Assembly: GCA_012719415.1 (NCBI GenBank)
Contig: JAAYAK010000237.1
Coordinates: forward strand, 1-64,000
Reading direction: 5' to 3'
Length of the DNA: 64,000 nucleotides
Source: Syntrophorhabdus sp.
GTDB lineage: Bacteria; Desulfobacterota; Syntrophorhabdia; Syntrophorhabdales; Syntrophorhabdaceae
Shown: one piece after another, positions 3,190-20,561 of the stretch
Layout: each line of letters opens with the position of its first letter
Position numbering within the stretch: the stretch's first letter is position 1
Made by a program: the position numbers and the translations under genes
The notes under the pieces: model-generated
What the model was told of the DNA's origin: nothing
What the model saw: the letters and a program-made list of their open reading frames with translations, nothing else
The model's database searches: none

Positions 3190-4446
3190 ATGAGAAAGCT
3201 GATGTGCATCATCATCGCTTTATTTGCGATGGGGTTTTTTCTGCCCGGCCCAGCGGGTGCCGCGGATCCCATCGTGATCGGGGCGCCGCTAGCGACCGCA
3301 TTCCTGTATGGATGGGACGCGGAGAGGGGCATCAAGCTTGCGGCGGATGAGATCAATGCCGCGGGCGGAGTAAAGGTGGGCAACACAAAGAGACCGTTCA
3401 AGGTGGAGGTCATCGACACCAGAGACCTCGAGCCCGGCGTGCCGGTCAGCGAGGCGCTCCTGGGGCTGGAAAAGCTCATACTCGAGAAGAAGGCGGATTT
3501 TATCGTCGGCGGACCGGTGCGCTCGGAAGCGGCCCTTGCCGCCATGGACATCCTGAGCAAGTATAAGAAGGTGAGCATCCTCACTACCGGGGTCCTCACT
3601 CCCGCGTACCACAAGAAGGTCGCAGATAATTATGCCAAATACAAATACTGTTTCAGGAACTCGAGCCATGTCGGCGTTATGATGCCGGAGTTCCTCACCC
3701 TCCTTGAAGACATGAGGAAAAGCTACGGGTTCAAGACCGCAGCCATCATGGTCCAGGATGTGGCGCATGCCCGCGCGGGTGGGGAGGCCATGGAAAAGGC
3801 CCTGAAAGGCAAGGGCTGGACCGTCATGGCGCCGAAGATCTATCCCACCGGGACCACGGACTATTCCGTCGGGCTCGCGGATGCCGGCAAGAACGGTGCC
3901 CAGATCCTTTTCCTGTGGATGGACATGCCTGAGAGCACCATCCTTCTGAAGCAGTGGGCGGACATGAAGCTCAAATGCATCCCCATCGGGTTTGTGAACG
4001 CGGCCGAGCAGCCTGGATTCATGAAGGCCTCGGGAGGAAAAGGGGAATACCTCATAGTGAACCTCGTCAACGGCGGCAACGCGCCCGCGAAGATCACTCC
4101 CTGGACGATGAAGTTCGTCGATGCCTACAAGAAAAAATGGGGGCTTGAGCCCGAGGGTTACGGCACATCGTCGAGCTACATGGCTGTCTACCAGTTGAAG
4201 GACGCCATCGAGAAAGCGGGGAGCACGGACTCGGAGAAGGTGATCACCGCCCTCGAGAACGGGGACATCATGGGTGTCTACGGGAGAATGAGGTTCGACA
4301 AGAAGACGCACCAGATAATCCCTTCCCTCGACCCGAAGGAAGGCGCTGTGACGGGCATCATCCAGTGGCAGAAGGGCAAGAGGGTGCAGATATTCCCTCC
4401 CAAGGTGGCAGATGCGAAGGTCGTTCTTCCGCCCTGGATGAAGTAA
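3190..4446 (+). CDS. Periplasmic substrate-binding protein of Liv-type ABC importer
   Basis: 418 residues with a clear Sec signal peptide (cleavage after about residue 24, GPAGA/ADP) and the periplasmic ligand-binding fold typical of Liv-type proteins: IVIGAPLATAF at the start of the mature chain and an ABC-type fold to the end. The start follows a strong Shine-Dalgarno (GGGGGAGG). It is the first gene of an uninterrupted series that includes both permeases, both ATPases and an acyl-CoA ligase. The family binds branched-chain amino acids, amides, urea or aromatic acids. Because an acyl-CoA ligase follows and a sigma-54 system precedes, a carboxylic acid ligand is more likely than leucine; this is inference. 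Confidence 0.9.
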   Translation: MRKLMCIIIALFAMGFFLPGPAGAADPIVIGAPLATAFLYGWDAERGIKLAADEINAAGGVKVGNTKRPFKVEVIDTRDLEPGVPVSEALLGLEKLILEKKADFIVGGPVRSEAALAAMDILSKYKKVSILTTGVLTPAYHKKVADNYAKYKYCFRNSSHVGVMMPEFLTLLEDMRKSYGFKTAAIMVQDVAHARAGGEAMEKALKGKGWTVMAPKIYPTGTTDYSVGLADAGKNGAQILFLWMDMPESTILLKQWADMKLKCIPIGFVNAAEQPGFMKASGGKGEYLIVNLVNGGNAPAKITPWTMKFVDAYKKKWGLEPEGYGTSSSYMAVYQLKDAIEKAGSTDSEKVITALENGDIMGVYGRMRFDKKTHQIIPSLDPKEGAVTGIIQWQKGKRVQIFPPKVADAKVVLPPWMK

Positions 4447-4465
4447 ACCAAGAAAGAGGGGACAT

Positions 4466-5335
4466 ATGGAGCTTCTCGTATACGGGATCATCAACAGCAT
4501 CACCCTCTCCCTGGTATCCCTTGGCTTTACCCTTGTGTACAGCATAAGCAGGGTCCCGAACTTCGCTCACGGGGCCCTGTATGTTGCCTCGGGATACCTG
4601 ACGTGGCTCTTTCTCAACCAGTTTCTGGGATTCCCCTATTTTCTGGCGATCCTGTTGGGAGTGATCATCACGAGCCTTGTGGGGGCGGCCATCTACCAGT
4701 TCATACTCGTGCGCATCAGGGGCATGGAGATATCGGAGATAATAGCGACGTACGCGATCGGCCTTGCTATCCTGGAGGGTTTAAGGTGGGGAGGTTTGAG
4801 AGGCGGGACATTCGTTCTGCCCGCCTTCTTTTCCGGCTCCGTCAGCATACTGGGCGTGAGCGTGGACTACCAGCGTCTCATCATCGTCGGGGCGGGCATA
4901 CTGACCTTTATCATTCTCTACCTCTTCACGCGCCTGACGAAGGTCGGCCTTGCCTTTCGCGGCATAGCCCAGGATGAACGGGCGGCCATGATGCTCGGGA
5001 TCAATTCCGATATGACCGCCGTTCTCTCCCTCGCCATAGGATCGGCGCTGGCGGGGCTTGCCGCGGTGCTCCTTCTGCCCCTGGGGAACATAGTCGTGGA
5101 AGGAGGATACAACGTTCTTGTCTTCGCCGTCGCTGTCTGTGTCATCGGGGGATTGGGGAGCTGGGGAGGAGTGATCGTCGCCTCTTTCATTATCGGCTTC
5201 GCCCAGATCATGACGGAGTTCTTCATCTCCGCCCATTACCAGATGGTCGTTGCCCTTCTCGCCATCATTATCACACTTCTCGTCAAGCCTTCGGGGATAT
5301 TCGGTAAACAGAAAGAACTGGAAGAGCGGGTGTAG
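4466..5335 (+). CDS. livH: Branched-chain-type ABC permease LivH
   Basis: 289 residues, strongly hydrophobic throughout (about 8 membrane helices), of the BPD_transp_2 LivH family. It begins with the typical NSITLSLVSLGFTLVYSI segment and has the family loop AQDERAAMMLGIN before the later helices. It follows the binding protein by 19 bases with RBS AGAGGGG and is followed two bases later by livM. It forms the translocation channel with LivM in the inner membrane. Its length is normal for LivH. Confidence 0.93.
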   Translation: MELLVYGIINSITLSLVSLGFTLVYSISRVPNFAHGALYVASGYLTWLFLNQFLGFPYFLAILLGVIITSLVGAAIYQFILVRIRGMEISEIIATYAIGLAILEGLRWGGLRGGTFVLPAFFSGSVSILGVSVDYQRLIIVGAGILTFIILYLFTRLTKVGLAFRGIAQDERAAMMLGINSDMTAVLSLAIGSALAGLAAVLLLPLGNIVVEGGYNVLVFAVAVCVIGGLGSWGGVIVASFIIGFAQIMTEFFISAHYQMVVALLAIIITLLVKPSGIFGKQKELEERV

Positions 5336-5337
5336 CC

Positions 5338-6351
5338 ATGGATACGATGATGCGAAAAGAGAGGATCGACCGGGGGCTCAAGGTGAGGACGGAGGGCATC
5401 TACGCGATAACCTCCGCGCGGGAGATCCTCTATCTGATGGGACCGAGGATACTGCTCATCGTGGGGCTTCTGGCCCTTCCGTTTGTATTCGAGCTTGCTC
5501 CATACTGGAAAAAGGTCATCAACATCATGTGCGCGTACGCGCTCCTCGCGTTATCCTTCGACTTCCTGGCGAACTATGTCGGCCTTGTGTGTCTTGGAGG
5601 CGCGTTCTTCACCGGGGTCGGAGGATATTTCGCGGCTATCTTCAACGTGGAAGCGGGGTTGCCCATATGGCTATCGATGCCGCTGGCGACCGTCGTCGGG
5701 GCGGTGTTCTGCACCGTTGTGCTTTTGCCATGCCTTCCGCTGAGGGGTGTCTATTTCGCGATCGTCACCCTCATGTATCCCCTGCTGTTCACGAGGATCA
5801 TAGAGGCCCTGAACATACTCGGCGGCACGAACGGCATGACCGGGGTCGCTCCCTTTCCCAACGCCTACGTTGAGAACTATGTGATCATCATCCTGGCCCT
5901 TGTCTTTCTCTTCGCCATGCGGAGATTCGTGAACGAGGACGTCGGTCTTGTCCTGAGAGGCGTGAAGGACAACGACCAGTCGGTGAGGGCATCGGGCATA
6001 AGCGTCACCCGCATGAGGATCATCGGGGTTTTTATCGCGTCCCTGCTCGGGTGCCTCGCGGGTGCTTACATTGCCCATCTGTACATGTGGGCGGGTATCT
6101 CGCTCTTCGCCCTCGACTTTTCGATCATTCCCATTGCCGCGGTTGTCATTGGAGGAGGCGGGACCCTGGTGGGTGCCTTGATCGGCGCCTTCATCCTTGT
6201 TCCCCTCTCGGAGGTCCTCAGGGCCTTCGGGACCTTCAGGATCGTCATCTACTGCGTCATCCTGACGGGTTTTATCGTGTTCAAGAGCGAGGGTATCATG
6301 ATCTACCTTCAGAGAAAGTATCACCAGTTTGAAAGGTGGGTGAAAGTATGA
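5338..6351 (+). CDS. livM: Branched-chain-type ABC permease LivM
   Basis: 337 residues, about nine to ten membrane helices after a charged N-terminus of roughly 35 residues. It shows LivM-family features: ALLALSFDFLANYVGLVCLG and the EAA-like loop VLRGVKDNDQSVRASGI. The stop overlaps the start of livG (ATGA), showing coupled translation. It is the second channel subunit of the importer. Confidence 0.93.
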   Translation: MDTMMRKERIDRGLKVRTEGIYAITSAREILYLMGPRILLIVGLLALPFVFELAPYWKKVINIMCAYALLALSFDFLANYVGLVCLGGAFFTGVGGYFAAIFNVEAGLPIWLSMPLATVVGAVFCTVVLLPCLPLRGVYFAIVTLMYPLLFTRIIEALNILGGTNGMTGVAPFPNAYVENYVIIILALVFLFAMRRFVNEDVGLVLRGVKDNDQSVRASGISVTRMRIIGVFIASLLGCLAGAYIAHLYMWAGISLFALDFSIIPIAAVVIGGGGTLVGALIGAFILVPLSEVLRAFGTFRIVIYCVILTGFIVFKSEGIMIYLQRKYHQFERWVKV

Positions 6352-7115
6352 GCGCGCAGCCGGTACTATCCGTGCATGGAATCACGAAATCCTTCGGCGG
6401 TCTGAAGGCGCTCATGGATGTGAGCTTCGATATCTACGAAGGGGATGTCTTCGGCATAATCGGACCGAACGGGTCAGGAAAAACGACGCTGATAAACTGC
6501 ATCACCGGTTTCATCAGGACAGAGGCGGGCAAGGTGATGTTCAAAGGCAAGGACATCACGGGCTGGCAGCCTCACAAGATAGCGGACATAGGGATCGCCA
6601 GGACCTTCCAGATAATGCGGCCCTATCATTCCCTGCCGGCGTACAAGAACCTGATAATACCGCTGTGGTCGCCAAGGGCACGTAAGACCGGCGGGTGGCG
6701 CGGGGGCGGAAAGCACGGCGACAGGGACACGGTCGCCGTCGACATCCTCGAGGAGATCGGGTTCGAGCGCGATTCCCGGGTGCCTTACAAGCTTGCATCA
6801 ACCCTGCCCACGGGGTATCAGAAACGGCTCGAACTGGCGAGGTGCATGGCGCTGCGCCCGGAGATCATATTCTGTGACGAGGTCTTTTCCGGATTGAGCA
6901 TGAGTGAGATAGCAGGCATGGTACCGCTCATCGAGAAGATGAAGATGGAGGGAATAACGCTCATCATGGTGGAACATCGCCTGCGCGAGCTTTTCAAGGT
7001 GGCGACAAGGGTCATGGCCCTCAATTTCGGAGAGAAAATAACAGAAGGTGAAGCGCTCGATGTCATCGAGGACAAAAGAGTACGAGAGGCATACCTCGGA
7101 AGCGAAGGAGTGTAG
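6348..7115 (+). CDS. livG: Liv-type ABC transporter ATP-binding protein LivG
   Basis: 255 residues when started at the ATG at 6348, which has a good RBS (AAAGGTGGG) and a four-base overlap with livM; an in-frame GTG at 6336 would add four residues and is less likely. Walker A is GPNGSGKT. The ABC signature is degenerate (LPTGYQKRLELARCMA where the family usually has LSGG), followed by Walker B IIFCDEVFSGL and the switch H (MVEHRL). The LPTGYQ signature variant is known in aromatic-acid-associated Liv ATPases and still leaves a canonical partner in LivF. Confidence 0.92.
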   Translation: MSAQPVLSVHGITKSFGGLKALMDVSFDIYEGDVFGIIGPNGSGKTTLINCITGFIRTEAGKVMFKGKDITGWQPHKIADIGIARTFQIMRPYHSLPAYKNLIIPLWSPRARKTGGWRGGGKHGDRDTVAVDILEEIGFERDSRVPYKLASTLPTGYQKRLELARCMALRPEIIFCDEVFSGLSMSEIAGMVPLIEKMKMEGITLIMVEHRLRELFKVATRVMALNFGEKITEGEALDVIEDKRVREAYLGSEGV

Positions 7116-7118
7116 CCC

Positions 7119-7865
7119 ATGTTCGAAGCCTTTGAATTGATGGTGTTTTTTGAGAATATGATCGCTCTCAACAACGTGAGCATGACCTGCAGCGAGGGCA
7201 AGATCATCGGGATATTCGGTTCCAACAGCGCGGGGAAGAGTACCTTCATGCACGCCATCTCCGGGATCATCCTGGATATCAAGAAGAAAGAGTTGATGCG
7301 TGGCGGTGAACGGATATCCGTATTCGGGCGTGTGTTCTTCAACGGGAAGGACATATCGGCGGTGAGCCCCCACAACCGGGCGAAGGCAGGCATTGTCCTG
7401 TGTCCGGAACGAAGAAGGATATTTCCCGAGAGCTCGACGCTGGAGAATCTGAAGATCGGTTCCTATCTGGTGGGCAGCCGTGAGACCAAAGAGAACCTGG
7501 AATATGTCCTCAATCTCTTTCCTCGGCTCAAGGACCATTTGAAGAGACAGGGGGGGTTCTTAAGCGGCGGCGAGCAGCAGATGCTCGCCATCGGCAGGGC
7601 GCTCATGGCGTCGCCGAAGATGCTCCTGCTCGACGAACCTCTCCTGGGTCTGAGCCCGGCGTATCAGGAGATCGTCGTCAACGGAACCAAGGCCATCCGC
7701 GATTCGAAAGGTATCTCGATCATCATCACGGAACAATATGCTCGGCCCGTCATGCCCATTATCGATTACGGATATATACTTGAGAACGGCTCCAGTGTGC
7801 TGATGGGGACAAGAGAAGAACTGATGGATAATCCCGATGTGAAATCGGCATATTTCGGAGTGTAA
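7119..7865 (+). CDS. livF: Liv-type ABC transporter ATP-binding protein LivF
   Basis: 248 residues. The Walker A is GSNSAGKST rather than the usual GPNGAGKT, but the catalytic GK-ST is intact. The signature FLSGGEQQMLAIGRAL and Walker B LLLDEPLLGLSP are canonical, with TEQYA as the switch segment. It pairs with LivG. The N-terminus has a slightly unusual FEAFELMVFFENMIAL strand. It lies 11 bases from the acyl-CoA ligase, so it is in the same transcript. Confidence 0.93.
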   Translation: MFEAFELMVFFENMIALNNVSMTCSEGKIIGIFGSNSAGKSTFMHAISGIILDIKKKELMRGGERISVFGRVFFNGKDISAVSPHNRAKAGIVLCPERRRIFPESSTLENLKIGSYLVGSRETKENLEYVLNLFPRLKDHLKRQGGFLSGGEQQMLAIGRALMASPKMLLLDEPLLGLSPAYQEIVVNGTKAIRDSKGISIIITEQYARPVMPIIDYGYILENGSSVLMGTREELMDNPDVKSAYFGV

Positions 7866-7876
7866 GGGGTGAGGCA

Positions 7877-9529
7877 ATGGCATCCTTAGAAAACCAATAT
7901 ACATTCACACGTTTTGAGGAGGTGTGCAAGGAGCACTCCTCCAAGATCGCCCTCGTCTATCTTGGCGAAACCTTCACGTATGGACGACTGGAGACCCTCG
8001 TGCACAAGTTCGCCCGGGGCCTCTCCGACATGGGGGTGAAACAGCAGGACAGGGTGATGCTCTACATATCGAACTGTCCACAGTGGATCATCGCGAATTT
8101 CGCCATAAACAGGATCGGTGCCGTGACCGTTCCCGTGTCACCCATCTACACGGCCTTCGAGATCGAATACATGATCAACGACGCCGGCATAGAAACGGTG
8201 ATCTGCCTGGACACGAACTTTGTCTACGTGAAGGAGGTCATGGAGAGAACGAACCTGAAAAGGGTCATTGTCACGAACCTCGTTGATTTCATCTCGCCCT
8301 TCAAACGGGTGGTTGGCCATCTCTTCGACAAGATCCCCACGGGCAAGGTGGAAAAGGGAGACAGGATACACTTTTTCAAGGATGTGACATACCGGTCCCC
8401 GAACATACCGCCGGACATCACGATCGACCCGAAGACGGACCTCTCCTACATCATGTATACCGGTGGCACCACAGGTTTTCCGAAGGGCGTCCCTGGCAAC
8501 CACGTCGGAGAGGTTACCTACATAAACGACATCATGGAGGACGTGATCAAGGACTATGTCAATCCCGGGAACGATACCGTCCTCATGATCAACCCTCTCT
8601 TCCACATCATGGCGAAGGGTTTTTCCATAGCCTTCGGTTTCAACTATGCCAACACGGTGGTGCTCATGCCCATACCGGAGGTGGACCCCACGCTCTCCGC
8701 GATAGAGAGGTACAGGATCAAGTGGATGCTGGGCGTCCCGGCGCTCTACAGGATGATCCTCGAGAGCGATCGAGTCGACCAGTACGACCTGAGCTCGTTG
8801 AGGTACTGCTACTGCGGCGGTGATGTTCTTCCCGTTGAGGTCTTCAAGACCTGGCAGGAGAAATACTCCGTACCGCTTTACCAGGTCTACGGTTCCACGG
8901 AGATAGGCCACGTGACCTACAGCCTGCTCAGCCAGGAGCCGTCGCCCACCGTGATCGGGACTCCTTTGAAGACGAGGAAATCGATCGTCGTCGACAGGGA
9001 GACCCTGGAGAAGCTGCCGCCCGGCGAGCTGGGAGAGCTGCTTGTGACCTCTCCATACACGCTGAAGGAGTATCTCAATAAACCGGAGGAGACGGAGTAT
9101 TCCTACGTAAGACTGAACGGGGACATCTATTACCGCATGGGCGATTACGTCAAGATGAACGAGAGGGGAGAGCTGGAGTTCGTCGAGAGGACCGCCGACA
9201 TCATCAAGTACAAGGCGTACCGAGTCTCAGCGTCCGAGGTGGAGGCCGCCCTGCAGGACCATCCGACGGTCATCGGCGCCTGCGTCATCGGCGTGCCCGA
9301 CCCCAAGGTCGGGGAAAGGATCAAGGCGATCGTCGTTTTGAAGGAGGACGCGAAAGGGATCGGAAGCACCGAGCTTCTCAAGTGGTGCAGGGACCGGCTG
9401 GCCCCCTACAAGGTCCCAGGCTACATAGAGTTCCGTGACATGCTGCCGAAGTCGAAGGTTGGCAAACTTCTCAGGCGCGAGATACGGGACGAAGAGAAAC
9501 GCAAGCTCGAAAAGGAGAAGAGAAGGTAA
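7877..9529 (+). CDS. AMP-forming acyl-CoA synthetase/ligase
   Basis: 550 residues of the ANL superfamily. The P-loop-like motif YTGGTTGFPKG is at about residue 193, the YGSTEIGH motif at about 337, the hinge (MGDYVKMNERGELEFVERT) in the second half, and the C-terminal catalytic lysine in SKVGKLLRRE near 531. It converts a carboxylic acid, ATP and CoA to acyl-CoA through an acyl-AMP. Because it is the last gene of the Liv-type operon, it probably activates the imported acid in the cytoplasm. The exact substrate (fatty, aromatic or dicarboxylic) cannot be told from the motifs. RBS is AAGGGGTGAGG. Confidence 0.9.
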   Translation: MASLENQYTFTRFEEVCKEHSSKIALVYLGETFTYGRLETLVHKFARGLSDMGVKQQDRVMLYISNCPQWIIANFAINRIGAVTVPVSPIYTAFEIEYMINDAGIETVICLDTNFVYVKEVMERTNLKRVIVTNLVDFISPFKRVVGHLFDKIPTGKVEKGDRIHFFKDVTYRSPNIPPDITIDPKTDLSYIMYTGGTTGFPKGVPGNHVGEVTYINDIMEDVIKDYVNPGNDTVLMINPLFHIMAKGFSIAFGFNYANTVVLMPIPEVDPTLSAIERYRIKWMLGVPALYRMILESDRVDQYDLSSLRYCYCGGDVLPVEVFKTWQEKYSVPLYQVYGSTEIGHVTYSLLSQEPSPTVIGTPLKTRKSIVVDRETLEKLPPGELGELLVTSPYTLKEYLNKPEETEYSYVRLNGDIYYRMGDYVKMNERGELEFVERTADIIKYKAYRVSASEVEAALQDHPTVIGACVIGVPDPKVGERIKAIVVLKEDAKGIGSTELLKWCRDRLAPYKVPGYIEFRDMLPKSKVGKLLRREIRDEEKRKLEKEKRR

Positions 9530-15132: not shown

Positions 15133-15945
15133 TCAGAGATATTCCCTCCTCATCTCCTCTATCATGTCGGCAGTGAGCTTCTCCTGTTTTCTCAGGTCCG
15201 CGAAGCGGTCGAGGAGGTCGGTGGTGGTGAGGTATTGCTTGTCCTTTCCCGAGATCTCCTCAATGACCTGACCCTTGTGCATGAGGATGGTCCGCGAGCC
15301 CAGCGCGAGGGCCTGCTGCATGCTGTGGGTGATCATGATGGTCGTAAGGTGGTAGCGGGCGATGAACCGTTCCGTGAGGGCCACCACCTGGGCGGCGGAC
15401 TTCGGGTCGAGGGCCGCCGTGTGTTCGTCGAGGAGCAGGACCCTGGGCTCGTTCATCACGGCCATGAGGAGAGTGAGGGCCTGCCTCTGGCCGCCGGAAA
15501 GGGTGCCGATGGTGTTGTCGAGCCTGTTTTCCAGCTGCATTTCCAGCATCCGCACTTCCTCCCCGTAGACGGCCAGACGCTCGCGGGTGAGGCCGGGGAC
15601 GGGGTAGCGGGGCTTGCCCCTCATGAACGCGAGGTGGATGTTCTCCGCTATGGTCATGTCCGGGGCCGTTCCCATGAAGGGGTTCTGAAAGACGCGGGAG
15701 ATGAAGCGGGCGCGATGAAAATCCTGTTTCTTCGCCATATCCTCACCGCCTATGGTGATCGTGCCGCGGTCGGGGAGGAAGGTACCTGCGATGGCATTGA
15801 GAAGGGTGGACTTCCCGGAGCCGTTCGTTCCGATGATGGTCAGGAACTCTCCCTCTTCGACATGGAGATCGACGCCCCGGAGTGCGTAAACCTCGTTCAA
15901 GGTGCCGGCATTGAAGGTCTTGTGATAATCGACGATCTTTATCAT
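15133..15945 (-). CDS. ABC transporter ATP-binding protein partnered with the permease fusion
   Basis: 270 residues. Walker A GTNGSGKST, signature TLSGGQRQALTLLMAVM, Walker B VLLLDEHTAALDP and switch TITHSM-like MITHSMQQAL are all intact. It starts three bases after the permease stop. The set (this ATPase, a LivH/RbsC-like permease and PF04392-like binding domains) resembles the TrpXYZ/“ABC_sub_bind” importers, whose known substrates include aromatic amino acids. The actual ligand is unknown here. Confidence 0.9.
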   Translation of the reverse strand: MIKIVDYHKTFNAGTLNEVYALRGVDLHVEEGEFLTIIGTNGSGKSTLLNAIAGTFLPDRGTITIGGEDMAKKQDFHRARFISRVFQNPFMGTAPDMTIAENIHLAFMRGKPRYPVPGLTRERLAVYGEEVRMLEMQLENRLDNTIGTLSGGQRQALTLLMAVMNEPRVLLLDEHTAALDPKSAAQVVALTERFIARYHLTTIMITHSMQQALALGSRTILMHKGQVIEEISGKDKQYLTTTDLLDRFADLRKQEKLTADMIEEMRREYL

Positions 15946-15948
15946 GGG

Positions 15949-18771
15949 TTATTTCACCGCCCGCACGGCTTTTTTGACGAGGTCGTCGGGAATGCTTATG
16001 CCGTATTCCTTTGCCAGGGAGAGGCTGAGTGTGAGCTGTTCCGGCACGTAGGAGACGATGGGTATGGCGGCGGGTTTCTCTCCCCCGATGACCCTGACGG
16101 TGAGCTCGGCGGCCTTGAGCCCCACGTCGTAGTAATCCGCTCCGAGGCACATGAAGACCCCGGAATCGATGTCCGCCGGCGTGTTCGTCACGTAAGGGAT
16201 CTTTTTCTGCCGGAGCTTCTGGGCAACAGAGGGGATGACCGCGGAAACGGTCGTGTCTCCCGAGGTGAAGAAGATGTCCGGTTCGCTCGCGAGGATCGAG
16301 CGGAGCGCCTGGTCGATCTCCTGGGTGCCGGTGATCTGGACCTCGACAACCTTAAAGCCATATTTTTTTGCTGCCTCCCGCGTCAGGAGGGTACATATCT
16401 CAGAGTTCGCCTCGGCGGGGTTCCAGATCATCCCGATAACCTTCGCCTTCGGGAAGACCCTGCGCATGAGTTTGACCGTCGCTTCGACGGGTTGCGGGGT
16501 GGCGATTCCCGTAAGGTTTGGGGGGTGATCAGTGAAGCTTTTTGCCGCCCCGGCCTTTATCGGGTCGGTGACCGCCGCGAAAATGTGGGGAATCTCCTTG
16601 TTGTGGTTCACTGTCACCTGGAGTGATATCGTCGATACGGTGACGATATAATCATACTTCTTGCTCACCATCTCCTGGGCAATGGACTGGGCGGTGGGAA
16701 AATCCCCGTTGGCCATCTTGTGGTCGACGGATATTTTTTCTCTCTCGAGGACGCCGCTCTTCTTCAACCCGTCGATAACGCCCTTGGCACAGGTGTCGAG
16801 GATGACGTTGTCGGTGAACTGGAAAAGGGCGAGCCGCTTACCTTGCCCGGATATTCCCCGGGAAGAAGGGTCACCGCCCCGCTTCTGTGTGTTGCCTCCC
16901 TCATCGACGATCACCGTGGCCGCATCGATGAGCTCCCGGGGTATCGTAATCCCCAGTTCCCTTGCGACCTTGAGATTGATACCCAGCACCGTTTCCTTGT
17001 ATCGCTCAAAGGGGATCGAGGCGGGCTTTTCTCCTTTAATGATACGGTCCACCAGGTTTGCGGCCTGCCTGCCGCTGGATTCGTAGGCGTATCCGAAGAC
17101 CACCAGGGCGCCGCCTTCGGGATGGTCGACGTCGTTGAAGATAATGGGCACCTTTCTGCCTCGCGCCGCCTTGACGACGGAATCGAAGGCGGTATAGACG
17201 GTATTATCCGTGGAGAGGACGAAGGCGTCTATTCCCTTTTGGACCAGCGACGCGGCAACCTGGTATACCTCCGAGGAGTTGGCGATGTTGCCGCCGACGA
17301 AGGTGACATTGGGATGATTCTGCACGGCCTTTTTCAGGTTGTTGACGTTGTACTCGGAATTTGCCTGAGAGGGGTCCCAGATAACCCCGATCTTGATCTT
17401 TCCAGGAAGGATCCTGGTGACGATATCCATCGTCCTGTCCATGGGCACTGCGCCGTAGACCCCCGTCATGTTCGGGAGGTGGTCCGTGTCCGACTTGCCT
17501 GCCCCGATGAGGAACGGGTTTGCGACGGTTGCGAAGACCACGGGGCGGTCCTTTATCTTGTTGGCTGCCACCTGCGTGCAGGCCGTGGAGATGGGAACGA
17601 CGATATCCACCTTTTCCCGGAGGAACTTGTCGGCTATGGCGTTCAGGGTGGCAAGTTCCCCGCTGGCGTTTTCGACGATAAAGGTCGCGTTCTTTCCTTC
17701 CACGTAGCCAAGGCGCTTCATCTCTCCGAGAAAGCTGTCACGGGTGATATCGAGGATGGGGTTGTTGCTGACCTGGAAGACACCGATCCTGACCTTTTTT
17801 TGTGGCATGACGGCGACCAGATCCCCGTATTTCACGGAGGCGAAGACTCCCAGGATAACGGCCGCGGCCACTGCTGCCGTCACAAGGTGCTTCTTCTTCA
17901 TCTTTGCTTTCCCCTTGCCGATCTTTGCGGTGACAACGAGGGTGATGAGGACGAAGATCGCCGTCATAAGCTTGAGATCGATGGGGTCCATCCCGGCATA
18001 AAGGGCGGTGGCGATCATGAACCGGAAGATCACCGAACCGATTATCGCACTTGCGATCCAGGTGTAGACGGAATGCTTCTTGAGGATCGACTCCCCGATG
18101 ATGACCGAGGCGAGGCCGGTGACCACGGTCCCGATACCCATGCCGATGTCGGCAAAACCCTGGTACTGTGCCACGAGGCTGCCGGAGATGCCCACAAGAC
18201 CGTTGGCGATGGCGACGCCGAAGATCTTGACATGGTCCACGTTGATGCCGGCCGCGCGCGCCATGGTGGGGTTGTTGCCGGTTGCCCGCATGGAAAGGCC
18301 GAAATCGGTCTTGAAGAAAAAGGAGACGGCGAACCAGGATGCGGCCATGATAAGAGTGAGGCACAACGCCGTCCACGGTTCGCGGGGCAACCCGGGGTTT
18401 GCCTTGTTGAGGAGCGTAAAGAACTCGGGTGTGTCAAGCAATGGTATGTTGGAGCGGCCCATGATGTGGAGGTTGACGGAATAGAGGCCGGTCATGACCA
18501 GAATGCCTGCCAGGAGACTGTTGACATTGAGGCGGGTGTTGATGAGCGCCGTGATGCTTCCCGCGGCGCTGCAGGCGAGAAAAGAGGCCAGTACGGCCAG
18601 GAGAGGATGGACGCCGGAGACGACCAGGACGGAGCTGATGGCGGCGCCCGTCGTGAACGTCCCGTCAACGGTGATGTCGGGAAAGTCATGAATGCGGAAG
18701 GTAATGTAAATGCCGATGGCCACGAAGGCGTAGAGAAAGCCGAGGTTGAGGGCGCCTACCCAGAGCTCCAT
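15949..18771 (-). CDS. ABC permease fused to two tandem substrate-binding domains
   Basis: 940 residues, about three times the normal permease length. Residues 1-300 are a complete BPD_transp_2 permease (about 8-9 helices; FPDITVDGTFTTGAAISS and the GINVDHVKIFGVAIANGL loop). A further helix near 303-320 (VTAAVAAAVILGVFASV) leads to two homologous PF04392-like binding domains: about 325-635 (VRIGVFQVSNNPILD) and about 637-940 (RLALFQFTDNVILD). The two domains are clearly paralogous but diverged. Tethered binding domains are known in some amino-acid and osmolyte ABC systems; I know of none with this permease family and order. The ATG lies three bases after the upstream STAS gene. Confidence 0.88.
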   Translation of the reverse strand: MELWVGALNLGFLYAFVAIGIYITFRIHDFPDITVDGTFTTGAAISSVLVVSGVHPLLAVLASFLACSAAGSITALINTRLNVNSLLAGILVMTGLYSVNLHIMGRSNIPLLDTPEFFTLLNKANPGLPREPWTALCLTLIMAASWFAVSFFFKTDFGLSMRATGNNPTMARAAGINVDHVKIFGVAIANGLVGISGSLVAQYQGFADIGMGIGTVVTGLASVIIGESILKKHSVYTWIASAIIGSVIFRFMIATALYAGMDPIDLKLMTAIFVLITLVVTAKIGKGKAKMKKKHLVTAAVAAAVILGVFASVKYGDLVAVMPQKKVRIGVFQVSNNPILDITRDSFLGEMKRLGYVEGKNATFIVENASGELATLNAIADKFLREKVDIVVPISTACTQVAANKIKDRPVVFATVANPFLIGAGKSDTDHLPNMTGVYGAVPMDRTMDIVTRILPGKIKIGVIWDPSQANSEYNVNNLKKAVQNHPNVTFVGGNIANSSEVYQVAASLVQKGIDAFVLSTDNTVYTAFDSVVKAARGRKVPIIFNDVDHPEGGALVVFGYAYESSGRQAANLVDRIIKGEKPASIPFERYKETVLGINLKVARELGITIPRELIDAATVIVDEGGNTQKRGGDPSSRGISGQGKRLALFQFTDNVILDTCAKGVIDGLKKSGVLEREKISVDHKMANGDFPTAQSIAQEMVSKKYDYIVTVSTISLQVTVNHNKEIPHIFAAVTDPIKAGAAKSFTDHPPNLTGIATPQPVEATVKLMRRVFPKAKVIGMIWNPAEANSEICTLLTREAAKKYGFKVVEVQITGTQEIDQALRSILASEPDIFFTSGDTTVSAVIPSVAQKLRQKKIPYVTNTPADIDSGVFMCLGADYYDVGLKAAELTVRVIGGEKPAAIPIVSYVPEQLTLSLSLAKEYGISIPDDLVKKAVRAVK

Positions 18772-18774
18772 CGA

Positions 18775-19989
18775 CTAACCGCCGATCTCCACGATACCCA
18801 TGAGGCCGGGACCGACGTTCGACCTGCCCATAAGGTGGACGACCCTCTGCGGTTCCATGCCGGTGACGATCCTCCTGAGTTCGTTGGGAAAGTTGTCCGG
18901 CATCCTGTTGAAGGGTTTCTTGTCGAAAACGACGGCGTGCACGTGGGCGCGGCCCTCCCGCGGGATGGCCCTGTCGGCATCTCCGGTCACGCGGTCTCTC
19001 TGACGGGCGGAGATGCCAGCGATGACGACGAGGTTGTAGATGTCCTCGGGCTCGATGGAGTAGTCGACCCATTCGGAGAAGCTCTTTCCCGAGAAGATAT
19101 CCTCTTCGCCGGGGCCGCGGTTCTCCTCGAGGGGGATCTTCTTGAGGCGCATGCCGAAGAGGCCCTTGCTCTCGAAGATGGCCGCAATGCCTATCACGGG
19201 TGAGGACGATACGGTGTGGGCGCTTTCGAGAAGAGTGTCAAGCGTGAAGAGGTTATTTCCGGGCTCGAAGGAGACGATGTGGGCGAAGTCTCCCGTGAAG
19301 GAGAAGCCGTGGAGAAAGTGATAGACCGTGTCCATCTCTCCCTCGGTGTGCACGATGAAATCAACGGCGGACCTTCTCAGGGCGGGGTATACAAAGATAT
19401 TGCCGTCGAGGACGATGGTTTCCCCGAAATAGCCCTTATAGTCCTCGAAACTGTGGCCCAGAGCCGCGAATCCGGCCGCAAACCGCATGTCTGCCGCCCT
19501 GACGGACACAACATCCCCTTCACCGTAGGAGGCCGACGGAAGCTTTTCTTCGCTGCCCATGAGGGTGAGCGACCCGGTGGGGACATCCCGGGTGAGGACA
19601 CGCAGCGCCGCGTGGTCGTACGGGACCTCCTTGATCTCGACCTCCCCTGCAGAAGACGTGAGGAGTCGTGTTATCTCGTTTTCGGAGGAAAGGAAACGAA
19701 AGATCTTCGTGAATCCGCTTATCTCAAATACCGAATGAACGGCGGACGGACATGCCAGGAAGCAGACCTCTCCCCCCGCCTTTTTCAGTTCCTTCTGAAC
19801 GGACAGGAAAACACGCAGGCCAGCACTGCTCACATAGCTGACCGCCGTCATGTCGGCGACAATGAGCCTCTTACCGGCCATGATGGCGTTCCTGAAGAGG
19901 GCCTCGATCTCCCGGCAGGTTATGCTGTCGATCCTGCCTGCGAGCAGAAGCTTGTCGACGGTCTGTTCTGGGGACAAAGGATCGTTCAT
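18775..19989 (-). CDS. STAS-domain protein with unknown C-terminal domain
   Basis: 404 residues. Residues 1-115 are an anti-anti-sigma type STAS domain: VADMTAVSYVSSAGLRVFLSVQ contains the conserved Ser pair before AGLR. The following 280 residues (from about 120) form a separate alpha/beta region with no motif I recognise; it includes GHSFEDYKGYFGETIVL and AGISARQRDR. It is the first gene of the ABC operon, ending three bases before the permease fusion. A cytoplasmic role in controlling or coupling the transporter is inferred from position only. No serine phosphatase or anti-sigma kinase is nearby. Confidence 0.8.
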   Translation of the reverse strand: MNDPLSPEQTVDKLLLAGRIDSITCREIEALFRNAIMAGKRLIVADMTAVSYVSSAGLRVFLSVQKELKKAGGEVCFLACPSAVHSVFEISGFTKIFRFLSSENEITRLLTSSAGEVEIKEVPYDHAALRVLTRDVPTGSLTLMGSEEKLPSASYGEGDVVSVRAADMRFAAGFAALGHSFEDYKGYFGETIVLDGNIFVYPALRRSAVDFIVHTEGEMDTVYHFLHGFSFTGDFAHIVSFEPGNNLFTLDTLLESAHTVSSSPVIGIAAIFESKGLFGMRLKKIPLEENRGPGEEDIFSGKSFSEWVDYSIEPEDIYNLVVIAGISARQRDRVTGDADRAIPREGRAHVHAVVFDKKPFNRMPDNFPNELRRIVTGMEPQRVVHLMGRSNVGPGLMGIVEIGG

Positions 19990-20105: not shown

Positions 20106-20561
20106 ATGCGTTCAGCGACAAGGTTGTGTGCGGTGAGCCTCGTCCTTATGTTCCTGGTGTCGGCGGGGTTGTTCGTGTTGACAAACGAGGGGTTGGCCGA
20201 TCCCTGTCCTTCGGGAAGTTACCAGAGGTCGTGCAACATGAGTTCGGCCACATGTACCCCCAGCAGCATCACCGCGTCGTGCAAGAAGATGAATGGTGAC
20301 TGGAGACAATCAAGTCTCAACCTGCCCTGCAGGCAGGAAATATCCAACTGTGACGGTACGCTGCGTTGTCTTTGCGGCAGCGACTGCCCGGCGGGAAGCT
20401 ATAACCAGTCCTGCTGGTGCTGCTACATTCAGGGTTCAACCCTGGGTTGTTTCTGCAAGAACAAAAAGGGAAAGTCGGTACCCACGACCCTTTCCGGTTA
20501 CACGTCGTGCAGGTCTAACACGATCTGGAACGATAATGGCAAGTTGAAGTGTCAAAGGTAG
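20106..20561 (+). CDS. Secreted cyanovirin-N-like (CVNH) Cys-rich protein
   Basis: 151 residues with a signal peptide (about 1-31, GLA/DPC). The mature chain contains two CVNH-like repeats. Repeat 1 (about 35-85) has GSYQRSC, then a SC/KKMNG-W-SSL-L segment, ending in ISNCDGTLRC; repeat 2 (about 97-151) has GSYNQSC, NKKGK, and WNDNGKLKC. The G(S/N)(F/Y)..SC opening and the N.DG.L(K/R) ending are the CVNH hallmarks. It differs from cyanovirin-N in being far richer in Cys (about 17 in the mature part). CVNH proteins bind mannose-rich or other glycans; extracellular or periplasmic glycan binding is inferred. It has its own promoter and RBS. Confidence 0.75.
   Translation: MRSATRLCAVSLVLMFLVSAGLFVLTNEGLADPCPSGSYQRSCNMSSATCTPSSITASCKKMNGDWRQSSLNLPCRQEISNCDGTLRCLCGSDCPAGSYNQSCWCCYIQGSTLGCFCKNKKGKSVPTTLSGYTSCRSNTIWNDNGKLKCQR

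Follow-up and report, generated by a model that had tools for sequence, protein, structure and literature searches.

In the Syntrophorhabdus window, that is, the whole stretch of 64,000 nucleotides analysed here, one gene encodes both the permease of a TrpXYZ-like ABC importer and two tandem substrate-binding domains (SBDs). This fused gene is real, conserved and under purifying selection. Its product is probably a homodimeric TrpXYZ-like importer with four tethered SBDs and an aromatic-amino-acid-like ligand; the STAS protein encoded next to it probably gates this importer from the cytoplasmic side. The first-pass annotation had described a single chain of 940 residues with a permease, an extra helix and two diverged PF04392 domains, and the open reading frame and the Pfam search uphold this architecture; the conserved STAS gene, the variation from one to three SBDs and the free poly-SBD relatives had been overlooked. 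The genes and their parts are:

15949-18771, (-) strand: permease-SBD fusion open reading frame, 940 residues, ATG start, internal stop absent
17932-18771, (-) strand: permease domain, residues 1-280, TrpY-like, PF02653 (Pfam, domain map; dN/dS 0.09-0.10)
17887-17931, (-) strand: Lys/Arg-rich loop, residues 281-295, predicted cytoplasmic, with a positive cluster in all fused relatives
17830-17895, (-) strand: putative extra helix, about residues 293-314 (helix 293-314 of the model, with low pLDDT there; hydrophobicity; TrpX profile match)
16909-17790, (-) strand: S1 SBD, residues 328-621, PF04392, selectivity positions Asp547 and Tyr563
16840-16908, (-) strand: S1-S2 linker, residues 622-644, variable in length and sequence among relatives
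15961-16839, (-) strand: S2 SBD, residues 645-937, PF04392, selectivity positions Thr864 and Tyr880
15133-15945, (-) strand: ABC ATPase, 270 residues, 3 nt downstream of the fused gene, with Walker A, LSGGQRQ, Walker B and H-loop
19660-19989, (-) strand: STAS domain of the partner protein (Pfam STAS, 1.3e-14), with a Ser54-Ser55-Ala-Gly motif
18778-19644, (-) strand: C-terminal domain of the partner protein, about 290 residues, conserved among relatives, of no known family

In the Pfam search, BPD_transp_2 (PF02653) matches residues 6-276 of the fusion (E 1.6e-25), and PF04392 matches two stretches with 357.9 bits summed, the best being 329-619; scored singly, S1 and S2 reach 186 bits each against a cut-off of 25.9. 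Both Pfam and the permease tree relate this BPD_transp_2-type permease to the TrpY-like permeases of unfused systems. The solved structures nearest to S1 and S2 alike are 3lkv, 6hni and 3lft, which are phenylalanine, tyrosine and tryptophan binding proteins, respectively, and the same three are the best matches of the modelled SBD folds (pLDDT mostly 75-93, target-normalised TM 0.82-0.89). The permease part of the AlphaFold model is too poor for use (pLDDT < 50). The NCBIfam TrpX equivalog cut-off of 390 is not reached (351.9 bits over both SBDs together), so that tryptophan specificity is not to be assumed. As in TrpXYZ-type systems, a cognate ATPase with intact motifs is encoded in the same operon, whereas the SBDs are joined to the permease instead of forming a separate secreted or lipid-anchored protein. 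Elsewhere in the genome of the window PF04392 is detected just once, weakly, in a 1286-residue frame. Homodimers are standard for ABC importers with one permease gene, and if the single permease homodimerises, it follows that there are four tethered SBDs per transporter.

A survey for the same architecture finds that the permease-SBD fusion recurs in about 25 genomes among the matches listed, which belong to Desulfobacterota, including Syntrophorhabdus, and to a KSB1-assigned phylum; the PF04392 survey sampled Desulfobacterota and the phylum of the KSB1-named record, and divergent members may be missed by it. Close relatives share 83-84% identity, one of them from Syntrophorhabdus sp. PtaB.Bin047, and the fusion frame is open in relatives with 82-85% identity in the genus and with 52-58% identity outside it, both in other families and in remoter members of the phylum. 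A stop near residue 325, named in the first-pass annotation as the mark of two genes fused by error, was sought in every complete relative of the genus, family and phylum, and it is absent from all of them: one open frame runs throughout, and the fusion is borne out. In a single genome (G048), a TAG lies late in S2. By Nei-Gojobori ratios between relatives, dN/dS is 0.06-0.13 across permease, S1 and S2, with the lowest values in S2 (0.06-0.08); it is 0.13-0.22 at the junction of permease, extra helix and S1, and 0.18-0.95 in the short S1-S2 linker.

The extra helix appears to correspond to the former signal peptide or anchor of TrpX. The NCBIfam TrpX profile match begins at residue 302, which equals profile position 7, and the start of this profile presumably represents the signal peptide that TrpX has as a separate protein. 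All fused members have a hydrophobic segment with a Lys/Arg-rich stretch ahead of it, and by the positive-inside rule the SBDs are therefore predicted to lie outside; as the permease model is poor, this topology rests on charge and hydrophobicity. Free poly-SBD proteins start with a similar hydrophobic anchor where their start is clear (L082-L084).

Neighbour clustering of 26 loci gives the gene order STAS protein (about 405 residues), permease-SBD protein and 270-residue ATPase. These genes abut, with gaps of mostly -4 to 4 nt, and in the window the STAS gene (18775-19989, (-) strand) stops 3 nt ahead of the permease start. In G048, G084 and G119, which belong to one family, other genes intervene between the fused gene and the ATPase, and the stretch fetched from G119 is without an ATPase. 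Divergently from the operon, the window encodes a small secreted-looking CVNH-domain protein (20106-20561, (+) strand), with a homologue likewise placed in L090; further away lies a Liv-type ABC importer (3190-9529, (+) strand; SBP, two permeases and two ATPases), after which comes an AMP-binding acyl-CoA ligase.

Three SBD types, S1, Sm and S2, were assigned by profiles, one per type. The order permease-S1-S2 (P-S1-S2) is that of the window and of most members, and it is accompanied by P-S2 (G002, G003), P-S1 (G181, G487), P-Sm-S2 (G345) and P-S1-Sm-S2 (L008, L009, G245), natural variants that show the modularity of the SBDs. In G327 the second SBD scores as Sm by profile, yet it falls in the S2 clade of the SBD tree. 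Four relatives have free poly-SBD proteins, with four SBDs in G361 and G221, three in G212 and two in G473, whose genes adjoin the gene of a divergent STAS protein. In G361, G221 and G212 the poly-SBD gene is followed by separate permease and ATPase genes, STAS being separate too; the short contig of G473 holds no permease. On plasmids, the top matches cover about one permease and one SBP gene, and the search for relatives of the STAS partner's C-terminal domain gave none.

In the SBD tree, a split supported at 100/98 sets the solo TrpX-like SBDs apart from all those in tandem or fused form (53 rows, counting one solo SBD of G487), and within the fused domains the tree recovers the clades S1 (100/100), Sm (100/100) and S2 (100/99). 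The free poly-SBD proteins hold relatives of S1 and S2 in the opposite order, S2-type first and S1-type last, so that the tree places the SBDs as three old paralogue clades predating the fusion. A recent duplication of S1 into S2 is ruled out, since S1, Sm and S2 are separate phylum-wide clades and kin of S1 and S2 already occur in the free poly-SBD proteins. Fused forms with fewer SBDs would most simply be losses. The permease tree places the unfused permeases from G212, G361 and G221 among solo permeases (100/99) and separately from the fused ones, consistent with a single fusion event, although the deep branching is partly unresolved. Two candidates for permease fusions, G065 and G102, were dropped because both are SBD-carrier fusions of another kind, in which PF04392 is joined to a secondary carrier of the PF03547 Mem_trans (auxin efflux carrier) family (L087:4990-6978, (+) strand, 662 residues; L088:4359-6371, (-) strand, 670 residues). 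STAS, RsbW-like and SpoIIE-like genes lie near the SBD-carrier fusion in both L087 and L088.

In CD0873, Glu263 determines tyrosine specificity and Tyr279 is the second selectivity position, this pair being Ala/Tyr in VC_1101 and Ala/Gln in SP1069 (PMC6816091). S1 has Asp/Tyr at these positions in all fused members, as do most solo SBDs of the phylum. In S2 the pair is Thr/Tyr within the genus, and outside it the first position is Thr, Ile, Val, Ser, Gly or Asp; in Syntrophorhabdus, the conserved Asp-Asn pair of S2 is also replaced by Asp-Thr. These pocket positions suggest that S1 has the common pocket and that S2 has diverged, probably favouring a ligand related to but different from that of S1. 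The transporter ligand would be aromatic-amino-acid-like. Tryptophan is unsupported, as the second selectivity position is Tyr in both S1 and S2, and not the Gln of SP1069.

The STAS domain of the partner protein has SpoIIAA (1tid, E 6e-7) as its best fold match. All complete STAS partners have the Ser-Ser motif, and in a visual alignment its second Ser matches the Ser that is phosphorylated in SpoIIAA/RsbV. The C-terminal residues, about 290, were modelled poorly and gave no match in Pfam, PDB sequence or PDB fold searches. A profile of this C-terminal domain matches 17 of 395 genomes of the phylum: 14 have the fused gene, one (G222) has a fused gene cut by the contig end, and one (G212) has the unfused poly-SBD system, so that 16 of the 17 also hold a fused or poly-SBD system. 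The 17th (G288) has an orphan gene with this domain (L119:6338-7591), and ABC genes are absent from the 16 kb fetched. In the phylum of the KSB1-named record the profile matches 4 of 82 genomes, of which three have the fused gene (in one it is cut by a contig end), the fourth being G473 with its free two-SBD protein. For G361 and G221, it took a locally built profile to detect the divergent STAS proteins. As PF04392 itself occurs at E 1e-20 in at least 151 of the 395 genomes, the association of the C-terminal domain with the fused or poly-SBD transporter is specific, and across the 395 genomes of the phylum the STAS partner follows this transporter almost exactly. In G028 a stop splits the STAS gene (L072:8395-9621, (-) strand) and the fused transporter gene is intact.

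Other explanations have been weighed against an importer with several working SBDs. That a sequencing or assembly error joined two genes is virtually inconceivable: assemblies made independently, among them the single-contig genome G058, have the same open frame, which rules out an artefact, and nothing was found in support of such an error. It could also be argued that a single SBD binds the ligand while the other one is a spacer or a docking decoy, an explanation to which the Asp-Thr pair and the Thr at the selectivity position of Syntrophorhabdus S2 lend some weight. This appears quite improbable, because S2 has the lowest dN/dS and because S2 is kept as the sole SBD in G002 and G003, and S1 in G181.

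A different proposal is that the complex acts mainly as a sensor (transceptor), in which SBD occupancy would alter the permease or ATPase, which in turn would control a STAS switch of the anti-sigma-factor-antagonist type, with transport being secondary. The SpoIIAA-like fold and the invariant Ser motif agree with it, and so do some of the neighbouring genes: a divergent pair of RsbV-like STAS and RsbW-like HATPase_c_2 genes beside the operon in G345, an HATPase_c_2-GNAT fusion directly upstream of the operon STAS gene and on the same strand in G222 (L118:2828-4342, (-) strand), and STAS, HATPase_c_2 and GAF-SpoIIE genes just past the ATPase in G212. These RsbW/SpoIIE neighbours were spotted after the fact in a minority of loci (three lineages), and at most loci, the window among them, there are no kinase or phosphatase genes beside the operon. 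HATPase_c_2 genes are present in all 14 genomes checked, so the kinase may act in trans. The ATPase retains its catalytic motifs and the paralogous unfused systems are ordinary importers, which, together with the partner-switch genes missing around most loci, makes a primary sensor unlikely.

The favoured model, that of a gated importer, proposes that a binding protein has turned into part of the permease of a TrpXYZ-like importer. The permease-SBD homodimer would pair with two ATPases, and the former SBP signal peptide would provide one additional membrane crossing per chain. Two flexible periplasmic SBDs per chain would then place four binding domains over one pore, S1 presumably retaining the canonical aromatic-amino-acid pocket pattern and S2 acting with its changed selectivity position, and, as in GlnPQ, the SBDs would compete with one another to dock on the pore. 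The cytoplasmic STAS protein may gate the ATPase or the permease, as MlaB does for MlaF, and an RsbW/SpoIIE-type kinase and phosphatase probably control it through the conserved Ser. As a counterpoint, the STAS protein might regulate something else, given that G288 has the STAS gene and no transporter within 16 kb. More tentatively, and with less than even confidence, these proteins may represent an importer family with a variable modular SBD array (one to three per chain), whose activity or signalling is coupled to a SpoIIAA-type switch by a STAS protein of its own that bears a new domain for ligand sensing or docking. The natural series of free poly-SBD proteins and of one, two and three tethered SBDs makes the effects of SBD number and tethering on transport testable. 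With MlaB as the first case, this would be a second ABC system that has a STAS partner of its own, which bears on the generality of STAS control, and the C-terminal domain of the partner is a conserved domain without a family.

Aromatic amino-acid importers of the TrpXYZ/CD0873 type have homologous SBP, permease and ATPase and share the SBD fold and most of the pocket pattern, but their SBP is separate, whereas here the permease carries one to three SBDs fused to its C-terminal end and the operon includes a STAS gene. To our knowledge, GlnPQ has no STAS partner. GlnPQ carries its tandem SBD pair on the N-terminal side of the permease, which gives four sites per transporter (PMC8025302). Two tandem SBDs per permease chain are thus shared with GlnPQ of Lactococcus and other Firmicutes, although the families are unrelated (PF04392/PF02653 here) and the SBDs are C-terminal here and N-terminal there. 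In OpuA (OpuABC) the SBD is C-terminal. It is likewise tethered to the importer permease (PMC11065425), but OpuA differs in its single SBD per chain, its ligand glycine betaine and its protein families. MlaFEDB resembles the present system in that a STAS protein is encoded together with an ABC transporter; there the STAS protein MlaB binds the ATPase MlaF, and Thr52 of MlaB corresponds to the conserved Ser/Thr of STAS proteins (PMC7367683). However, MlaB is one short STAS domain of a lipid transporter, and the partner described here has an extra 290-residue domain of unknown fold. The anti-sigma-factor antagonists SpoIIAA and RsbV share the STAS fold and the conserved Ser, but here STAS is fused to that domain and encoded with an ABC importer. 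The search of the open-access literature yielded no description of the permease-then-SBD order for the TrpY family, in agreement with the earlier remark that this order was not known in this family, GlnPQ having the reverse order and belonging to another family. Four tethered SBDs are already known from GlnPQ, whereas the family, the C-terminal order, the variable SBD number and the STAS partner appear to be new.
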